From: Isosphaera pallida ATCC 43644
Lineage (GTDB): Bacteria; Planctomycetota; Planctomycetia; Isosphaerales; Isosphaeraceae
Length of the DNA: 64,000 bases
Direction: 5' to 3'
Assembly (NCBI RefSeq): GCF_000186345.1
Contig: NC_014962.1
Location: 2,232,001-2,296,000 of the forward strand
Part shown: piece after piece, positions 2 to 12,234 of the stretch
Layout of the letters: every line of letters starts with the position of its first letter
Position numbering within the stretch: the first letter of the stretch is position 1
Position numbers and translations under genes: made by a program
Notes under the pieces: model-generated
Told to the model about the DNA's origin: nothing
Database searches by the model: none
The model's input: the letters and a program-made list of their open reading frames with translations, nothing else

Positions 2-1870
2 ATGATCGACGAGGACGATCCGATCAGTCGCACCAATGAGAATCCATACACTGCTGCCTATGCCGCTCCCGAACAGATCGACCCCTCCATCAACAACAAC
101 CAACTCGACGAACGGACTGATCTGTACGCCGTTGGGGTCATGCTTTATGAGTTCCTGACCGGGCGGCGACCCTTCGTGGGGGGACTGCCTCAGATTTGCA
201 TGAACAAGCTGGCCTCGCTCCCCAAACCGCCTTCGCACCACAACCCCGAAATCTCTCCCCAACTCGACGCCTTCACGCTACGTTGTCTAGCCAAAAACCC
301 AAGCGATCGTCCTCAAACGGCCAGGCAGCTTCTGGAGGACTTCGCCGCCATTTTGGGCCACTCCAGCGTACTTCGTCTCCCACCCCGCCCAGTCGTTGTC
401 CCCGGCGAGCAGATATCCACCAACCCCAGTGGTTATTCAACCCTCCCCCCCTCGACCACTCAACCCAATACGGGCTCCACGACCGCCAAGAGCTCCAGCA
501 CACGCGATTCCACCGCCACCAACGATCACTCGCTGCCCAACGAACATGAGAGTCTCAACACGGATTTCCTTCGCTCTTCCAACTTCGCCCCCTCCTCTTA
601 CCCCACTCATTTCATCAGCGGCGATTCCTCCGCCCCGACGCCTGGAAGTTCTCACGAAAACAGCGACGTTTCCCAACACCTGACCGCCTTTCCAATCCAA
701 GTGGTGGGAACGTTGGTGGCGTTTGGCGTCCTGGTCTTGGCGGCCGTCTTCCTGCTCCCGCGAGAATGGTTCTCCAACACCAAAGGTATCGATCCGCCGA
801 AGATCGAGTCAGATGGTCCGAAGAGGTCGCTGACTTGGGACGGCATGATCGACGAGGAGGGCCGTTCAAGCTTCGCCGATTGGCCCGCCGTGCTGGTGCG
901 GGCCGACAAACCGGGCATTCGCTATCGTCGCCTAGACCGCTTCATGGGCAAGGACCTCAACCCCCGTCCGCTCTACCTCCCCGATGGCCTAGAGGCGGTT
1001 TCCGAACCCCGCGACGACAACCGCGACGGCTGGCCAATCCAACTGCGCCGCAGCCTCGACGGCGCGACCTTCCGCCTCATCCCGCCAGGGTCCTTCGAGA
1101 TGGGACGCGACGAGGGTGGCACCCAGGGACCTCGGGGCGATTTCCCCGCCCACCGGGTCGAACTGACCCGGCCGTTCTATTTGCAAGATCACGAAACCCG
1201 TTATCGGGAGTTCGAACTCTGGCTCGGGGAAACTAACCGCAAACCGTCCGCTGAGTTGGAGCGCACCCGTCAGGAACTCATCGAGGCCTTGGGAGCCCAA
1301 GCGATCGACGACCTGCCGGTCGGCTCGGTCACCTGGGCCGAGGCCGACGCCTTCGCCCGCTCCCGAGGCGGTCTGCTGCCCACCGAAGCGCAATGGGAAT
1401 ACGCCGCCCGCTCCCGAGGCGCACGCGCCTTACCCACCGTCTGGCCGGCCAACCTGAATGTGCGCGACCGCGTCGAAAACCTCGCCAACCTGCGCCGGGA
1501 CACCCCAAGCCCCCCCGGCTCGTTCGTTAACGACACCACCGCGGAAGGAATCCGCGACCTGTTCGGCAACCTCGCCGAATGGACCCGCGACCTTGGCCGG
1601 GTCTACAACTATGACTCGCAAATTGACCCGGGCGACGGAGCCGACGTTGGCGGCTCCCACAACGCGGAGGGCCCCCGGATCGTGCGGGGCTTTTCCTACA
1701 ACGACACCGACGCCAACCCCGTCCTCACCAAACGTAGAGAGTGGGAGGCCAGCTCCTCGGCTCCCTGGATTGGTTTTCGCATGATTCTGGTTCCCCTGTC
1801 CCGCCCGGACTCGAACGACGCACCGGTCCGGGTCGCGTCCTCGTCTGGCCCCCGAGGGTCGTCCAGATGA
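2..1870 (+). CDS. Ser/Thr protein kinase (C-lobe) - TM - SUMF1/FGE-sulfatase domain protein, 5' end outside window
   Basis: The first visible residues are the activation-segment end and C-lobe of a Hanks-type kinase: AAPEQ at about residue 22, then DLYAVGVMLYEFLTGRRPF and a DRPQTA stretch. The catalytic HRD and DFG motifs lie before the window. A Ser/Thr/Pro-rich linker (about 125-225) leads to one membrane helix (about 233-252). An extracytoplasmic SUMF1-type domain follows (about 358-600), with the family landmarks PPGSFEMG, LPTEAQWEYAARS, FGNLAEWTRD, RIVRGFSY and WIGFRM. The region that in true formylglycine-generating enzymes carries the two active-site cysteines has none, so I infer a binding or structural role rather than sulfatase activation. 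The stop overlaps the next start as ATGA, implying translational coupling to the pseudocaspase lipoprotein. Kinase and SUMF1 calls are firm; ligand and substrates are unknown. Confidence 0.9.
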   Translation: MIDEDDPISRTNENPYTAAYAAPEQIDPSINNNQLDERTDLYAVGVMLYEFLTGRRPFVGGLPQICMNKLASLPKPPSHHNPEISPQLDAFTLRCLAKNPSDRPQTARQLLEDFAAILGHSSVLRLPPRPVVVPGEQISTNPSGYSTLPPSTTQPNTGSTTAKSSSTRDSTATNDHSLPNEHESLNTDFLRSSNFAPSSYPTHFISGDSSAPTPGSSHENSDVSQHLTAFPIQVVGTLVAFGVLVLAAVFLLPREWFSNTKGIDPPKIESDGPKRSLTWDGMIDEEGRSSFADWPAVLVRADKPGIRYRRLDRFMGKDLNPRPLYLPDGLEAVSEPRDDNRDGWPIQLRRSLDGATFRLIPPGSFEMGRDEGGTQGPRGDFPAHRVELTRPFYLQDHETRYREFELWLGETNRKPSAELERTRQELIEALGAQAIDDLPVGSVTWAEADAFARSRGGLLPTEAQWEYAARSRGARALPTVWPANLNVRDRVENLANLRRDTPSPPGSFVNDTTAEGIRDLFGNLAEWTRDLGRVYNYDSQIDPGDGADVGGSHNAEGPRIVRGFSYNDTDANPVLTKRREWEASSSAPWIGFRMILVPLSRPDSNDAPVRVASSSGPRGSSR

Positions 1871-4800
1871 CGAGGTTTCCAAGAAACTGGTCAACGTGGC
1901 CAGAGCGGGGGCGGCGTCCGCCGTTCGTGTTGGGTTTGGGTTTGCTCATCCTGTGGGCCGCGTCATCAAGCGGTTGCGGACCGGGACAGCCCGAGCCGAT
2001 CGACCCTCTCACGGTTTCCGATCGACCCGCGACCACCCAACCCAACGTTACGACCGAGCCATCCGACTTCGAGCCGCCTCAAACGCAAGCAAGCCGGCGT
2101 TTCCAAGCCGCGGACGATCCGCCCGGTTCCCCCCCCGATGACGACGATCCCGACGGCGTTGGCCCCCGTCTGCGGGTGATCGCGGTGGGAATCAATCAGA
2201 CCGACCCACCCGACCCGGCCATTCCCGCCCGTCCCGACGCCGAATCGGCCGCCCGCGCCTTCGCCGCTTGGATGGCCGACGACCTGGGCTGGCAGGGCGA
2301 TCGGCTGCTGCGGATGAGTCCCCGCGATCCTGACCCGCCGCTGGACCGTCGGGCTTCGCTCGGTTTCCTACGCCCTACTCGCGCCAACCTTGATTGGGCC
2401 GTCACCGCATGGGCCGCCCGCGACCTGCGCCCGGGCGATTGGGTCTGGATTCATTTCGTCGGTCAACCCGGCTGGGTCGGACCACGCGGCCTGGAACCCC
2501 TCCAAACCGCCCAACCCAACCCCAACCCCGCACCTACAGCGGCGTCCTCACCTCGCGCCGTGCTAATCGCCTCCGACACCCGGTCCGACCACGCCGAAAC
2601 TGCTTGGATGCCCGCTCCCGCGTTGGCCGAACTCGCCCGACGTGGGGCACGGGTGCTGCTCGTGGTGGACGCCTCGTCGCACACTGCCGACCAATCCGAC
2701 CCGTCGCTCCTGCGTTGGATGGAATCGGTCGCAATTCATCCCCATATCAGCGTCTGGATGACTCAAACACCCATCACCGCGTCTCCTTCGTCCGACGAGC
2801 CGCGGACCAACTCGTTGGTCGCTGCGCTGAGGCGAGCTACCCAAGGACGAACGGGCCCCATCTCTCCCGCCGAACTGCTAGCGCGGGTGCGAATGGACCC
2901 TTCCTGGCGCACACAAGGACGCACGCTTTGGAGCGTCGGCGCGGTCCCCTTCGACGTGAGCCTAAGACCATCAGCCTTGAACGCGCTGGAACCGCCTCGA
3001 CCCTTGCCACAACGCGGCCATTCCGACGCGGTGACTGCCTTGGCGTGGACCCCCGACGACCGCTTTCTCATGAGCGGCTCGCATGATTCGACCCTTCGCG
3101 TCTGGCGTGTGGAGGGGTCTGGCGAGTTGACACTGAGCCGAGTCTGGGCCGATCCCATCAATGGCGTGACTGATCTCGCGTTGTCATGGGATGGAGTCAG
3201 TCTGATCGGGGGCGACCTGGGCCGCCGAGTCCAGGTTCACCGTCTGGGAAGCGACGCGGTCTTCAACCTCGCCGAACCTCCCGCCCACGAATCCGGGATC
3301 GTCCAGGTCGGGGTTTTGCCCGACGGCACGCGCGGCTTGTCACTCGACGATCGCGGCGAGTTGCGGCTCTGGACCTGGAACACCGACGGCAAAGCGGCGG
3401 TCCCCTCACGCAAGCTGGCCGATCGAATCCGCCGGTTCGCGCTGATTGACCCGCGGCGCAAGCGCGGCGGGGAGTTCCCGGCGGCTTCCCGGAGAATCGT
3501 GGGAGCGCTCGTTGGTGAGGAGGAGGTGCATCTTCTCGAATCCATCGACAACTCATCCGACGCAGCTGCGGCAGAGATCCGTCTGCGTCGTTTGTCGGAA
3601 TTGGACTCAAGTGTGATCGCCTTCGACGAGGTTCTCACGCTGGCAATCGCGCCCGACGGCTCGGCTCTAGGTGGGATCGACCAAGAGGGAAGCGTCTGGT
3701 TGATCGACCTGACCGGCGGCTCGGAATCGGCGAGTCAACCCCGCGTGACGCGACTCAGCGGCCTGCCTCCCGCCTTGGATTTGTTGCTCGATCAAGAGGG
3801 GGGATTCGTCGCCGCGGGTGGTCAAGCCTGGCGTTTTGGACCCGCCGGCCAACCCGGAACGCCCCGCCCTCTTCGAACCGGGGCTGATTCCGCGGCCGGG
3901 GAGAGCAAAGAGCGGGGTGAAACGGCGGCCCGAAAACTCACACGCCTGCGAATCTCACCGGATGAGCGCTGGCTGGTCGGTCTGACCGAAACGGCCACGC
4001 CGCTGGTCTGGCGTTGGGACCATTGCAACGGCAAGGCGACCCCCATCACGGTGGAGACTCCCCATTTCTCCTCCGCGGTCGCCGCCCGAGCGTTGGCCGT
4101 GGGTTCCTCTCGACTGGCGGTGGGCGACCGCTTAGGAGGCTTGTGGGTCTGGTCTCTGGAGGAGGCCACGCCCGACGCAGGGGCGGGTCTCTCAGGCAAC
4201 CGTCCGGGGGCCGCGCGGCTCCAAGCGCGACTGACGGCCTGGCGACCTGCCCAAGGAGATGGGATCGTCACGCTGCGGGCCAGCCGCGACGGCTCGCGCG
4301 TTGTGTTGATCCGCCAGGATGGAACCGCTTGGCTCGTCGAGCCGACGTTGGGACGAACCCGCCTCCTTCCCGGCGTCTGGTCGGCGGGCACCATGAGCGA
4401 AACCGGCGAGTTGCTGGCTCTGGTGGATCGGAGAACCGGCGCGATTGAACGTGTGGAGATTCAAGCCGATCAGACACGCTTGGAGACGTTGGCGAACACC
4501 GAGGGGTCAGACTGGTTCGCGGTGTCGATCGCGCCGGATGGCCGTCGAATCGCCGGAACGCGGCGAGACACGCCCGAGATTTCTGTCTGGGATGGAGCTA
4601 CGGGGCGTTTGCTGGCCAACCTCGACCTTCAACGTCAATCGCCGCCGCTGGGGATGATATTCGTCGCCAACGATCGCCTAACCGTGATCGACGCGAAGGG
4701 TGCTGTTCTGGTGGCTTCAGGTGAGGAAACACCGGACGGCGTTTTGCAATTCGAGGTGGTCGCCCAAGCCGATCTCGACTTGTTTGACGATGAACGCTCG

Positions 4801-6684
4801 GTTTGGGTTGCAGCCTGGACTGGCCCTGCGTCAGGAAACCAGGGATCGCCACCGTTGCTGGCATTGCTCGCGGAACCCCAAAGCGAAACGCTTCCCACCG
4901 AAACCAACCACGCCCGCGACCTCTTCGTTTGGGAACGTCTCGACGCCACCCCGGAGCCGCTCCGCCGTCTTGGCGCGACGACTCTTGAGCCGCTGGACCT
5001 GGCCGTGGTCAATCAGGGCAACGCGGTGGTGGTGGTGGGCGAACGAGGCCGCATCGAGGTGTGGGATCGAAGTCGCGGCGGTCGCAGCGAACGGGGACGC
5101 CAACCAGGTTGGCGTCACGACGGGGCGGTTCGAACCGTGGCCGCCTGGCCGTTCTCCAACGGATTCGCCACCGCGGGCGACGACGCGGCGATTCGTCTCT
5201 GGTCGGTCGAAACCTCCAAACCGCTTGGGATGATCTTGCCTCAAGGCGACACCTGCCAGGACTGGTTGGCGCTGACGCCCGACGGCCGATTCGACGGCCC
5301 CGACTCCATGCATTCGATCATGCGGTTTCGTCAATTCGACGAGAATGACTTGATCGCTCCGCCACATCTGGAACGGCGGTTCCACGCCCCCGGGTTGCTC
5401 GCCGACCTGCTGGCGGGCCAATCCTTCCCCGATCGACCGACGCTGAGAAGATGGGGCTCCCCTCCGGCGGTTCGCCTCGCTGTAGTCCCCGCTGGCCCGA
5501 ACACTCTCTCGCCAAACGAGGTGACGTTGGAGGCCTGGATCGAACCCGCCGGGCCGACGCCTCAGCTTTTGCATAATGGAACCCCCATCGATGCGATGGA
5601 GCCATCATCCGAACAACCCGGCCGTTTCTTCAAACGGGTCAACCTCATCGCAGGATCGAATCTGTTTCAAGTGATCGCCCGCACACACGACGCGGGTGGA
5701 CTGGATGGGATGTCCGAGCCCGTCTTCATCGACCATCCCCAAACGGAGAATCAGACCGACGCGGAGGGTCGGCGTCACGTCGTGGCAGTGGGAATCAACG
5801 CAACGAACTTTCGCCCACCGCTCAAGCACGCGGTCCGCGACGCGCGAAGCATGGCGCGGGTGTTGAACCAAACCACCCGCGAGGGAAAACGCGGCGAGAT
5901 GATCCTGCTGACCGACGAGGCCGCGAGTTCTTCGGCGATCTTCGAGGCGCTAGAGCAGGTCGCGCGGGCTTGCCGCAACCGCCCACAAGACACGGTGGCC
6001 TTGGTGCTGGTCGGACGGTTGGCGTGGGTGGAGGGCCAGATGGTTCTTCCCTTGACGCCGAGTCTCGACGCAGAGTTGGGCGATGTGGTGCAGTTGGGCG
6101 ATCTGATCGCTCGGTTGGAAGGGATGGCTGCGCTCCAACGTTGGTTGATGATTGATGGATGCGCGGTTCCGGGGATGGACACCGAGACTTGGCGACGGGC
6201 CTTCGTTCAAGCGGTCACGCCCGCCCGATTGGGTTGGCTGCTGGCTATCGCCCCTGAACCCGACGCGCGGGAGTCGGATCGCCTGGGTCATGGACTTCTC
6301 ACCGCCGCCGCCCTGTTGTGTCTCGACAGAGATGGTCGTGAGACGGCGTCGAGCGAAGTCGCGCGGTGGCGCGAGCTTGTCGCCGAAGCCCCGAAGGCCG
6401 CATCCCTCGAACCCGACCGCAACGGCGACGGTCTGCTGGACACGTTGGAACTCCGCGATGCGATCCAAGCTTGGCGCGCGGTACTAACCGGCACGCTTGC
6501 CCAAACCGAGCCGGTGGATCGAAGCAGCCTTCGCCTCTGGGGAGCGGGAGGGGCAGGGGGCACGCCCACGGGCCTCACGGTCGCGGATCGGTTTCCTCTG
6601 GTAAGGTTGTCGAATCCAAGGGGCCGGCCTCCAGGTCAGGAGGAAGCCGAACCCAAACCCTCCCCGCCCGCACCTGGGCGTTGA
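1867..6684 (+). CDS. Large lipoprotein with two inactive caspase folds, WD40 repeats and an EF-hand loop
   Basis: I chose ATG 1867 (ATGA overlap with the previous stop) rather than an in-frame ATG at 1741, because it places a basic/hydrophobic signal and a lipobox-like SSGC (Cys37) at the N-terminus. The mature part has a caspase-like fold (about 95-370) opening with RLRVIAVGIN. WD40-type repeats run from about 384 (HSDAVTALAW...LRVWRV) to about 1120. The motif WLALTPDGRFDG, common in WD40-caspase proteins, comes next, then an Ig-like segment and a second caspase fold from about 1302 (RRHVVAVGIN). Catalytic residues are lost. In fold 1 the GHG site reads VGQPG (199-202) and the Cys is Ser (DASSH, 268). 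In fold 2 the His is Arg1384 (VGRLA), although Cys1432 (IDGCA) remains. DRNGDGLLDTLE at 1517-1528 is a canonical EF-hand loop. It probably acts at the cell envelope as a scaffold or sensor with its coupled kinase. Its last 110 bp overlap the convergent Rieske gene. Confidence 0.85.
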   Translation: MTRFPRNWSTWPERGRRPPFVLGLGLLILWAASSSGCGPGQPEPIDPLTVSDRPATTQPNVTTEPSDFEPPQTQASRRFQAADDPPGSPPDDDDPDGVGPRLRVIAVGINQTDPPDPAIPARPDAESAARAFAAWMADDLGWQGDRLLRMSPRDPDPPLDRRASLGFLRPTRANLDWAVTAWAARDLRPGDWVWIHFVGQPGWVGPRGLEPLQTAQPNPNPAPTAASSPRAVLIASDTRSDHAETAWMPAPALAELARRGARVLLVVDASSHTADQSDPSLLRWMESVAIHPHISVWMTQTPITASPSSDEPRTNSLVAALRRATQGRTGPISPAELLARVRMDPSWRTQGRTLWSVGAVPFDVSLRPSALNALEPPRPLPQRGHSDAVTALAWTPDDRFLMSGSHDSTLRVWRVEGSGELTLSRVWADPINGVTDLALSWDGVSLIGGDLGRRVQVHRLGSDAVFNLAEPPAHESGIVQVGVLPDGTRGLSLDDRGELRLWTWNTDGKAAVPSRKLADRIRRFALIDPRRKRGGEFPAASRRIVGALVGEEEVHLLESIDNSSDAAAAEIRLRRLSELDSSVIAFDEVLTLAIAPDGSALGGIDQEGSVWLIDLTGGSESASQPRVTRLSGLPPALDLLLDQEGGFVAAGGQAWRFGPAGQPGTPRPLRTGADSAAGESKERGETAARKLTRLRISPDERWLVGLTETATPLVWRWDHCNGKATPITVETPHFSSAVAARALAVGSSRLAVGDRLGGLWVWSLEEATPDAGAGLSGNRPGAARLQARLTAWRPAQGDGIVTLRASRDGSRVVLIRQDGTAWLVEPTLGRTRLLPGVWSAGTMSETGELLALVDRRTGAIERVEIQADQTRLETLANTEGSDWFAVSIAPDGRRIAGTRRDTPEISVWDGATGRLLANLDLQRQSPPLGMIFVANDRLTVIDAKGAVLVASGEETPDGVLQFEVVAQADLDLFDDERSVWVAAWTGPASGNQGSPPLLALLAEPQSETLPTETNHARDLFVWERLDATPEPLRRLGATTLEPLDLAVVNQGNAVVVVGERGRIEVWDRSRGGRSERGRQPGWRHDGAVRTVAAWPFSNGFATAGDDAAIRLWSVETSKPLGMILPQGDTCQDWLALTPDGRFDGPDSMHSIMRFRQFDENDLIAPPHLERRFHAPGLLADLLAGQSFPDRPTLRRWGSPPAVRLAVVPAGPNTLSPNEVTLEAWIEPAGPTPQLLHNGTPIDAMEPSSEQPGRFFKRVNLIAGSNLFQVIARTHDAGGLDGMSEPVFIDHPQTENQTDAEGRRHVVAVGINATNFRPPLKHAVRDARSMARVLNQTTREGKRGEMILLTDEAASSSAIFEALEQVARACRNRPQDTVALVLVGRLAWVEGQMVLPLTPSLDAELGDVVQLGDLIARLEGMAALQRWLMIDGCAVPGMDTETWRRAFVQAVTPARLGWLLAIAPEPDARESDRLGHGLLTAAALLCLDRDGRETASSEVARWRELVAEAPKAASLEPDRNGDGLLDTLELRDAIQAWRAVLTGTLAQTEPVDRSSLRLWGAGGAGGTPTGLTVADRFPLVRLSNPRGRPPGQEEAEPKPSPPAPGR

Positions 6685-9848: not shown

Positions 9849-10161
9849 CTCGGAATTGAAGAAGACCATTTCGTAACCTCTGAGTGTCCTCTCACAATAA
9901 CCTGTTTTCGCAATTCGAGTTATGGCGAAACATTGACTCGGGAATCGGTCTGGGCTTTGACAAGGCGGGGGAAAGTTGATCTCGACGGCGACGATGTCGC
10001 TTTGACAATTCGAAGACGCTGTCGATAATCCCTGTCTGAGAAATGGTTGAGCTGTTTCATCGCTTTTTTTAGAGTTATCCCGTTCGGATTCACAATTCCC
10101 AACCCGATCTTGGGATGAGAAGTGCCATTTTTTAGCAAAGGCGGAATGATTCAGAAACCTC

Positions 10162-10171
10162 GTTTCGAAAC
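10162..10171. repeat. 10-bp palindrome GTTTCGAAAC
   Basis: This perfect palindrome lies 64 bp before the chosen start of the SelU-like gene, where a regulator could affect its transcription. It is short enough to occur by chance. Confidence 0.35.
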
Positions 10172-10235
10172 ATTTTTCCGAGTTTTTCCCGAGAGTCGCA
10201 AAACCTGGTCATTGAGGCTGTTAGTGAGGGACACA

Positions 10236-10826
10236 ATGATGACGCAACGCAACGAGGAGTCTGCAAAGAGAAACAGCGATCCTTGGGAACGCTGGGGTCT
10301 CGGGCGAGGCGGAGTGGGTGGCTCGGGTGGTTGGAAGTGGCTCCGCGACTTTATTGGGGATCGCCCCTCTTGCTGGATCTTCCTCCGTCACCTGGCTTGA
10401 CTGCCTTGCCGAGACCACCTGGTTCAGGTGGCGGAGCGATTTGAGGAGCTCGCTCAGCGAGGCGTGGTGATCGCGGTCTCGTTCGCCGACGGCTGGCGAA
10501 TCGATGCGTTTCGGGCCGAGAGGGATTGGCCGATGCCCATCGTCTCGGATCCGGAGCGGCGGCTTTATCATGCCTTTGGGATCGATCGACTACCCTGGTG
10601 GCGGGTCTGGACGCCGGGCGTTCTTGCACGCTCGGCGGTCCTGATCGCGCGGGGATACCGCCCGCGCCGGCCGACCGAGGACATTTATCAAGGGGGGGGA
10701 AACGTGGTTCTAGATGGACGGGGGCAGTTAGTTTGGCGGCGGGTGGGGCGGGGACCGGATGATCGTCCCAGCGTCGAGACCCTGCTCGACGCGATGAAGC
10801 GTGCCCAAACCCGTTCCTCAACCTAG
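10236..10826 (+). CDS. Probable selenoprotein, SelU-like AhpC/TSA_2 thioredoxin-fold protein (in-frame TGA = Sec55)
   Basis: One frame runs from ATG 10236 (GAGGG just upstream) to TAG 10824-10826 and is interrupted only by TGA at 10398-10400. Read through, it gives 196 residues with the AhpC-TSA_2/PRXL2 (SelU) hallmarks in order: WIFLRHLA-U-LPCRDHL, VVIAVSF, IVSDPERRLYHAFGI and DIYQGGGNVVLDGRG. The TGA falls precisely on the first Cys of the redox CxxC, giving U55-x-x-C58. Conservation continues on both sides, which argues against a decayed gene. A SECIS-like hairpin lies at 10409-10434. Family members are cytosolic thiol/peroxide oxidoreductases. If TGA were a true stop, the N-terminal part would be only 54 residues and a GTG at 10428 would give a protein lacking both redox residues. 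No selA/B/C/D gene is in the window. A point mutation or sequencing error TGC to TGA is the main alternative. Confidence 0.8.
10409..10434 (+). promoter_or_regulatory. Candidate bacterial SECIS element
   Basis: A perfect 7-bp upper stem CCACCTG/CAGGTGG (10415-10421 and 10425-10431) closes a GTT loop. Below it is an AGA bulge on the 5' side and a CCG/CGG lower stem (10409-10411 and 10432-10434). The loop starts 21 nt after the TGA and begins with G then U. This satisfies the published bacterial SECIS rules (loop about 16-37 nt from UGA, G among the first two loop bases). It lies inside the reading frame, as bacterial SECIS elements must. Confidence 0.7.
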
Positions 10827-11121: not shown

Positions 11122-12057
11122 TCAATCCCGTTGATCCTTGTCGTTGGGAGTGGGGTTAGCGGGGTCGGCGGCGGGCTTGGGATTCGAGGGTGACGAGGTC
11201 GCGGCCACGGTTTTGGGACGTAGGTAGAGCGTGACGGGAGTGCCCTTGGGAGGAATCGCGGGGGTGTTGGCCTCAAAGACACGATCTTGGTCGCTGGCGG
11301 AACTGGCAATCGGTAGGTCGAGGATGGCGGTGGGAAAGTTGACCACGGTGATGAGGTCCCCCTCGTCTCCTCCAAAGTAGGTTTTGCCGGTCTCGCGGTC
11401 GGTGTAGGTGGAACTGCCTGCGAAGACCCAATCCTCGTGGAGAAGGTCGCCCTTCAAACTCCGAACCCAGGTTTGGGCGGGCTGACGTTGCAACCGTCCT
11501 TGGTCATCCTTCCATTCGAGGTCGATCGCCATGGCAGTGCCGTGGGGAGGGCGAAACTTCGGTTCGTAGCGCACCACTCCGCCGGGTTCGGCTCCGGTGA
11601 GCAACAGACCGGCCTGAATCAGTTTGGGGGTGGCGGGGGTTGTGAGAATTGACTCATGCTCCTTAGTGCGTCTGAGGCAGAGCAGATGTTCCAGCGCTCC
11701 TTCGCGGAGGCACACTTCAGCGCGAAGGATCAGCCGCTTCTCCGCCGGATCGAACCAGAGGGCTTGACCGAGGGGTTTCCACTTGGGGTTGGGCTTGAAG
11801 CCGTCGCGGTCGGAAACTTCCACGGCGCGGGCCGCGGCGTCGTCCGGCATGACGAAGCCGCCGGCGGTGGAGAGAGGATCCGTCTCGGGGGGTTGTGGCT
11901 GGGCGGCTCGAAACGCAGGCGGACGCAGTTGCTCGACCGCGCTGACCGGCTCTTCGACCGATCCACCTACCACAAGCCAAATGACCATCCCCATCGTCAT
12001 TGTCATCGTCGTTTGGATCGTGAACCGCCTGGTGAGGACTTGCCGTCGTGGTCGCAT
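11122..12057 (-). CDS. Secreted YdjY-domain-like protein
   Basis: The start at 12057 gives a basic N-terminus (MRPRRQVLTRRF) and a hydrophobic stretch (MTMGMVIWLVVGG), so a signal peptide is likely; an upstream in-frame start at 12180 would bury it. The 311-residue product has the features of planctomycete YdjY-like proteins: EVCLREGALEHLLCLRRTKEHESIL, then PHGTAMAIDLEWKD, WVFAGSSTY and GDLITVVNFPTAILDLP. The C-terminus is Pro/Ser/Ala-rich and looks disordered. Function is unknown; such proteins are exported and often encoded near other envelope proteins. It lies downstream of, and on the same strand as, the coiled-coil gene. Confidence 0.7.
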   Translation of the reverse strand: MRPRRQVLTRRFTIQTTMTMTMGMVIWLVVGGSVEEPVSAVEQLRPPAFRAAQPQPPETDPLSTAGGFVMPDDAAARAVEVSDRDGFKPNPKWKPLGQALWFDPAEKRLILRAEVCLREGALEHLLCLRRTKEHESILTTPATPKLIQAGLLLTGAEPGGVVRYEPKFRPPHGTAMAIDLEWKDDQGRLQRQPAQTWVRSLKGDLLHEDWVFAGSSTYTDRETGKTYFGGDEGDLITVVNFPTAILDLPIASSASDQDRVFEANTPAIPPKGTPVTLYLRPKTVAATSSPSNPKPAADPANPTPNDKDQRD

Positions 12058-12234
12058 TCCCGCCTCCGAAAGACTCGGGATCTTTGTTGAACGTTCCCAT
12101 CTCAAGACGGGCTGGTCCAGGGTAACCCTCTCGAAGACGATCGGGTTTGGCGGCGAGGCGATCAAGAGGGGCCCGGCCATGACGAATACGCCGGCGAGAC
12201 CGCCACAACGCGAGAGGCCGCGACGCGAGGCGGC

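Follow-up and report, generated by a model that had tools for sequence, protein, structure and literature searches.

A predicted selenoprotein gene of Isosphaera pallida with an in-frame TGA in the redox motif of a SelL-related protein

The window analysed here, a stretch of 64,000 nt from the genome of I. pallida ATCC 43644, contains a 196-codon reading frame that runs from an ATG to a TAG (10824-10826) and is interrupted only once, by a TGA at codon 55 (Table 1). Mechanical ORF calling divides this locus into a frame at 10122-10400 and a 132-aa ORF at 10428-10826 that starts with GTG. An earlier note on this DNA, made from the letters alone, had proposed that the two frames are a single gene with one TGA and that standard calling would start at the GTG, missing both redox residues. 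The ORF calls bear out the latter point, and the former is confirmed by the 196-residue translation together with homology on both sides of the TGA. The geometry of the ORFs was rejected as evidence for read-through, as the window holds 57 TGA codons that are preceded by more than 50 open codons and followed by more than 120. What raises the read-through frame above chance is homology, since relatives align over the TGA and 18 other genomes carry a TGA in the same column. The GTG is unlikely to be the true start, since it lies in the 3' arm of a hairpin and both redox residues are encoded upstream of it. The sigma-70 consensus match upstream of the gene is the only one found, against 0.5 expected.

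Table 1. Features of the predicted selenoprotein locus, in window coordinates
Feature	Coordinates	Strand	Basis or remark
Predicted complete selenoprotein gene, SelL-related / PRXL2-like thioredoxin-fold redox protein	10236..10826	+	Read-through of 196 aa, then TAG
Codon 55 (TGA), predicted to encode selenocysteine at the first position of U-L-P-C	10398..10400	+	TGA in 18 relatives, Cys in 11 TGA-free homologues read
Codon 58 (TGC), resolving Cys at the second position of UxxC	10407..10409	+	Translation, alignment
GTG, would-be start of 132-aa ORF under standard calling; in hairpin 3' arm, downstream of both redox residues	10428..10430	+	
Putative bacterial SECIS hairpin, 7-bp stem CCACCUG/CAGGUGG, GUU apical loop	10415..10431	+	Model fit, covariation
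Possible Shine-Dalgarno GAGGG, upstream of ATG 10236 (about 6 nt) and of a second ATG, 10239 (9 nt)	10225..10229	+	Read from sequence; inference
Possible sigma-70 promoter TTGACA-16-GATAAT, 11/12, about 200 nt upstream of start	10002..10029	+	Consensus match only

Homologues of the encoded protein were detected at E <= 1e-6 in 49 of 119 related genomes. A TGA lies within the motif RH(L/M/I)xUxxC in 19 genomes, including that of I. pallida, while the codon-55 site is Cys in all 11 TGA-free homologues read, and the U55 column is invariant C/U in the homologue alignment. As expected of a bacterial selenoprotein gene, the in-frame UGA thus stands over the catalytic Cys of homologues, with conserved sequence on either side. 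In a phylum-wide sample, the TGA was at the active site in 16 of the 20 TGA-bearing homologues fetched. Four matches recorded with one TGA (L084, L085, L090 and L093) proved to have Cys at the site and an ordinary terminal stop, and the raw phylum TGA counts were left unused. The Sec-only alignment served as the scan query, the alignment including the Cys rows being too diverse for this purpose; a single-sequence scan of genome contigs and a protein search of a plasmid collection returned no match. The earlier note had equated the TGA with the first Cys of the PRXL2 CxxC (U55-LP-C58). This equivalence holds through the full-length Cys homologues and through human PRXL2B (9us9/9usa), in which the first Cys of FGCVVC falls under the U55 column, but not through the PF13911 HMM itself, whose match begins at residue 67, 3' of the CxxC-equivalent motif, so that full-length homologues were needed to establish it.

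The read-through protein is a member of SelL_rel_redox (NCBIfam NF040769), with 130.1 bits against a cut-off of 120; the 132-aa ORF reaches 82.3 bits, below that cut-off. It also matches PF13911 AhpC-TSA_2 (44.2 bits; gathering cut-off, 27), which, with the PRXL2-like fold and the Cys column, places it in this superfamily, and further profile matches are to Prx/Bcp and AhpC-TSA. The AlphaFold2 model has a pLDDT of 87 and a disordered N-terminus, where 26 residues are of low confidence and unlike those of the relatives. Its top match among solved folds is human PRXL2B (TM 0.71/0.84), and U55 is placed at the turn from a strand (45-49) to a helix (56-67), as is typical of thioredoxin-fold redox motifs. 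Besides the start Met, all nine invariant columns are kept (R51, H52, U55, D105, Y111, P127, D149, Q152 and P178); the QLGGDF of the family reads QGGGNV in the I. pallida copy. The label 'SelU-like' given by the earlier note therefore stands at the level of the SelU/PRXL2 superfamily, the nearest fold being that of PRXL2B, but SelL-related (NF040769) is the more exact name. The I. pallida genome contains 29 PF00578 (AhpC-TSA-type) stretches, and an in-frame stop (TGA) occurs only in the one at 10236-10826.

Beginning 14 nt past the TGA, with a UGA-to-loop spacing of 21 nt and an energy of -9.7 kcal/mol, the hairpin contains all elements of the published bSECIS model (PMC13188914). The criteria of this model are passed by 17 of 19 TGA forms (L026 and L032 fail the strict version), by none of the 11 Cys forms and, as background, by 6.3% of the window's TGA triplets. 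Across 19 relatives, standard pairs occupy 92.5% of the hairpin pair cells, and 12 cells show changes on both sides, e.g. from C-G to G-C beside the loop; none of 500 shuffles matches either figure, and shifting the pairing partner lowers the pairing to 37-53%. Under a null of synonymous-codon resampling, the mean z was -2.0 in the 19 TGA forms versus -0.07 in the 11 Cys forms, and z was also negative in 41 of 43 further TGA forms, whose species partly overlap the first set. As an isolated 43-nt RNA, the region has an alternative fold that is better by 0.8 kcal/mol. Removing roughly the first 6 nt or more, which mimics their cover by a ribosome, makes the hairpin the favoured fold, with a pair probability near 1. 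It is therefore the covariation, the synonymous-codon null and the folds with an occluded 5' side that support the hairpin, not the raw energy. A search of the region with Rfam found no SECIS, as expected for an element that is short and variable.

The proposal of a selenoprotein had been made to depend on the presence of selABCD and a tRNA-Sec, and all of these genes were found. The genome of I. pallida (5,529,304 bases in two contigs) encodes a tRNA-Sec with anticodon TCA (UCA; 72.9 bits), SelA (452 bits), SelB (322 bits) and SelD (352 bits), the complete set required for a bacterial selenoprotein, and a full Sec gene set in this species has been reported independently (PMC4807772). Both tRNA-Sec and SelB are present in all 19 TGA-form genomes, I. 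pallida included, while tRNA-Sec was found in 2 of the 29 genomes with only TGA-free homologues (Fisher p 1.8e-11, a value that ignores kinship). Phylum-wide, 15 of 16 genomes with the active-site TGA have tRNA-Sec; the one genome without it, G281, is a draft of 88% completeness in which no SelB exceeds the cut-off. An alternative code in which UGA is read as Trp was set aside, as tRNA-Sec and the Cys-equivalent column account for the site and several relatives use TGA as a normal stop. In I. pallida, the FdhA-family protein (formate dehydrogenase alpha, L101) has no TGA inside its match and SelD (L048) has no TGA either, so neither of these usual selenoproteins explains why the genome has retained the Sec pathway. 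Next to the Sec genes, a 313-aa ORF (L047:2940-3881, minus strand) overlaps the start of selA by 4 bases and likely shares an operon with it, and a 435-aa ORF (L009:2782-4089, minus strand), which we take to resemble a LarA/DUF2088-type protein, lies immediately upstream of selB.

Homology past the TGA, U/C equivalence, the Sec pathway, the conservation and covariation of the hairpin and the predicted fold were each found directly, and from these we infer Sec incorporation at codon 55. The locus is thus very probably one intact selenoprotein gene, in which UGA is predicted to be read as selenocysteine, at the active site of a redox enzyme with a thioredoxin fold; the TGA/Cys column and the covarying SECIS-like hairpin support this interpretation, which the earlier note had put forward. 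It is highly unlikely that the gene is decaying after a nonsense mutation of its catalytic Cys codon to TGA. Such a pseudogene would fit with the I. pallida copy being the most divergent in the tree and with the absence of the gene from most same-family genomes sampled, but the TGA is at the identical position in 18 other genomes, all with Sec machinery, the frame contains no further stop or frameshift, all nine invariant columns that follow the start Met are intact and the hairpin is kept. A misreading of TGC or TGT as TGA, for which one base change suffices, has next to no probability, considering that the same codon is TGA in many independent assemblies and that the hairpin accompanies the TGA forms. 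There is also very little chance that the locus yields a short N-terminal peptide and, from GTG 10428, a 132-aa protein, each functional on its own. Although this is the outcome of mechanical ORF calling, the GTG is part of the hairpin and has no evident ribosome-binding site, the 132-aa product is without the two redox residues and scores below the family cut-off, and the relatives encode one continuous protein through either Cys or TGA.

For the intact selenoprotein gene, we propose that, when a ribosome reaches UGA 10398, SelB-GTP carrying Sec-tRNA-Sec and bound to the hairpin would insert selenocysteine, and termination would not occur. The product, of about 21 kDa, would probably be cytosolic and have the thioredoxin fold of the SelL-related/PRXL2 superfamily. 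Sec55 may act as the attacking nucleophile and Cys58 as the resolving thiol, in a catalytic cycle that would proceed via a selenenylsulfide reduced by thioredoxin or a similar donor; candidate substrates are a peroxide, a disulfide or a lipid hydroperoxide. The canonical peroxiredoxin signature PxxxT/SxxC is missing, position -3 being H52 and position -7 I48, counted from U55, so that peroxidase activity is no more than a possible function. There is nearly an even chance that the selenoprotein is chiefly a reductase of the thiol:disulfide or prostamide-synthase-like type rather than a peroxidase; such a role would be compatible with Sec insertion. The lack of the peroxidatic signature, the nearest solved fold (PRXL2B) and the resemblance of UxxC to thioredoxin-type motifs all point in this direction, whereas the profile matches to Prx/Bcp and AhpC-TSA point to the peroxidases too.

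With SelU/PRXL2 (FAM213), the protein has in common the PF13911 match, the PRXL2B fold and the first Cys of PRXL2B under U55, although identity is only about 18% and the likeness is shown via the PRXL2B profile and fold. In eukaryotic SelU, the SECIS lies in the 3'-UTR. With the SelL-related redox proteins (NF040769), it shares a full-length match above cut-off, a thioredoxin fold of Prx-like type, Sec as the first residue of the CxxC-equivalent motif and a bacterial SECIS in the coding region. SelL proper reportedly has a UxxU motif with a diselenide; in the ULPC of I. pallida, the second position is Cys58, so no diselenide is possible. SelL itself goes back to Shchedrina et al. (2007, PNAS; cited in PMC2397514), and a bacterial 'ULPU-containing selenoprotein' has been listed (PMC5029168). 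Among other bacterial selenoproteins, an AhpC/TSA protein (PF13911/cd02970) of a gutless-worm symbiont shares the domain family and Sec at the first motif position, though its motif is UxxS rather than UxxC (PMC9312934, PMC13188914). The Prx-like thiol:disulfide oxidoreductase selenoproteins with UxxC or UxxU (PMC1794560, PMC13188914) have in common the AhpC-TSA superfamily, the UxxC motif and bacterial Sec insertion; they differ in being listed under PF00578. The gene hence belongs to an already known selenoprotein family, with UxxC, UxxS and UxxU relatives published or curated. The planctomycete protein is not named in the papers found by a literature search of partial coverage, and the gene probably lacks annotation so far. 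The description 'unrecognised' in the earlier note can accordingly be kept for this gene but not for its kind, as Sec-containing PF13911/cd02970 proteins and Prx-like UxxC proteins of bacteria are already listed (PMC9312934, PMC13188914).

In a tree of 74 rows, which included no SelU sequences and in which the Sec/Cys site was masked, 5 state changes were counted versus 14.7 in shuffles. The I. pallida protein is the most divergent row (end branch, 1.88), and its placement is unsure, within a group in which 45 of the 46 rows have Sec. One Gemmataceae homologue (L118:3001-3579) has TGC at the Sec site and still contains the SECIS-like hairpin sequence CACCTCGGAGAGGTG, apparently the outcome of a recent Sec-to-Cys switch. 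Three UxxC proteins from Deltaproteobacteria MAGs (L121, L123 and L125) nest among planctomycete Gemmataceae sequences, suggesting horizontal transfer or mis-binning. It is possible, although we put it forward tentatively, that UxxC selenoproteins related to SelL/PRXL2 form a broad group in Planctomycetota that is for the most part uncatalogued, occurs in many families and has been transferred to some Deltaproteobacteria. This group may be among the main reasons why such genomes keep the Sec trait, given that formate dehydrogenase and SelD both lack Sec here.

Annotating the read-through restores to a redox enzyme the active site that it would lose under standard annotation, and Isosphaera-type planctomycetes, in which the Sec pathway was already known (PMC4807772), gain a concrete predicted selenoprotein. 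Dozens of planctomycete genomes are probably mis-annotated in this way, and the family constitutes a natural set for Sec/Cys comparison. As for the surroundings of the gene, it is adjoined on the opposite strand by a YdjY-domain protein (11122-12180; NF040466, 180 bits against a cut-off of 50), and a 1647-aa ORF at 1741-6684 appears, by eye only, caspase-like with WD-repeat-like stretches.
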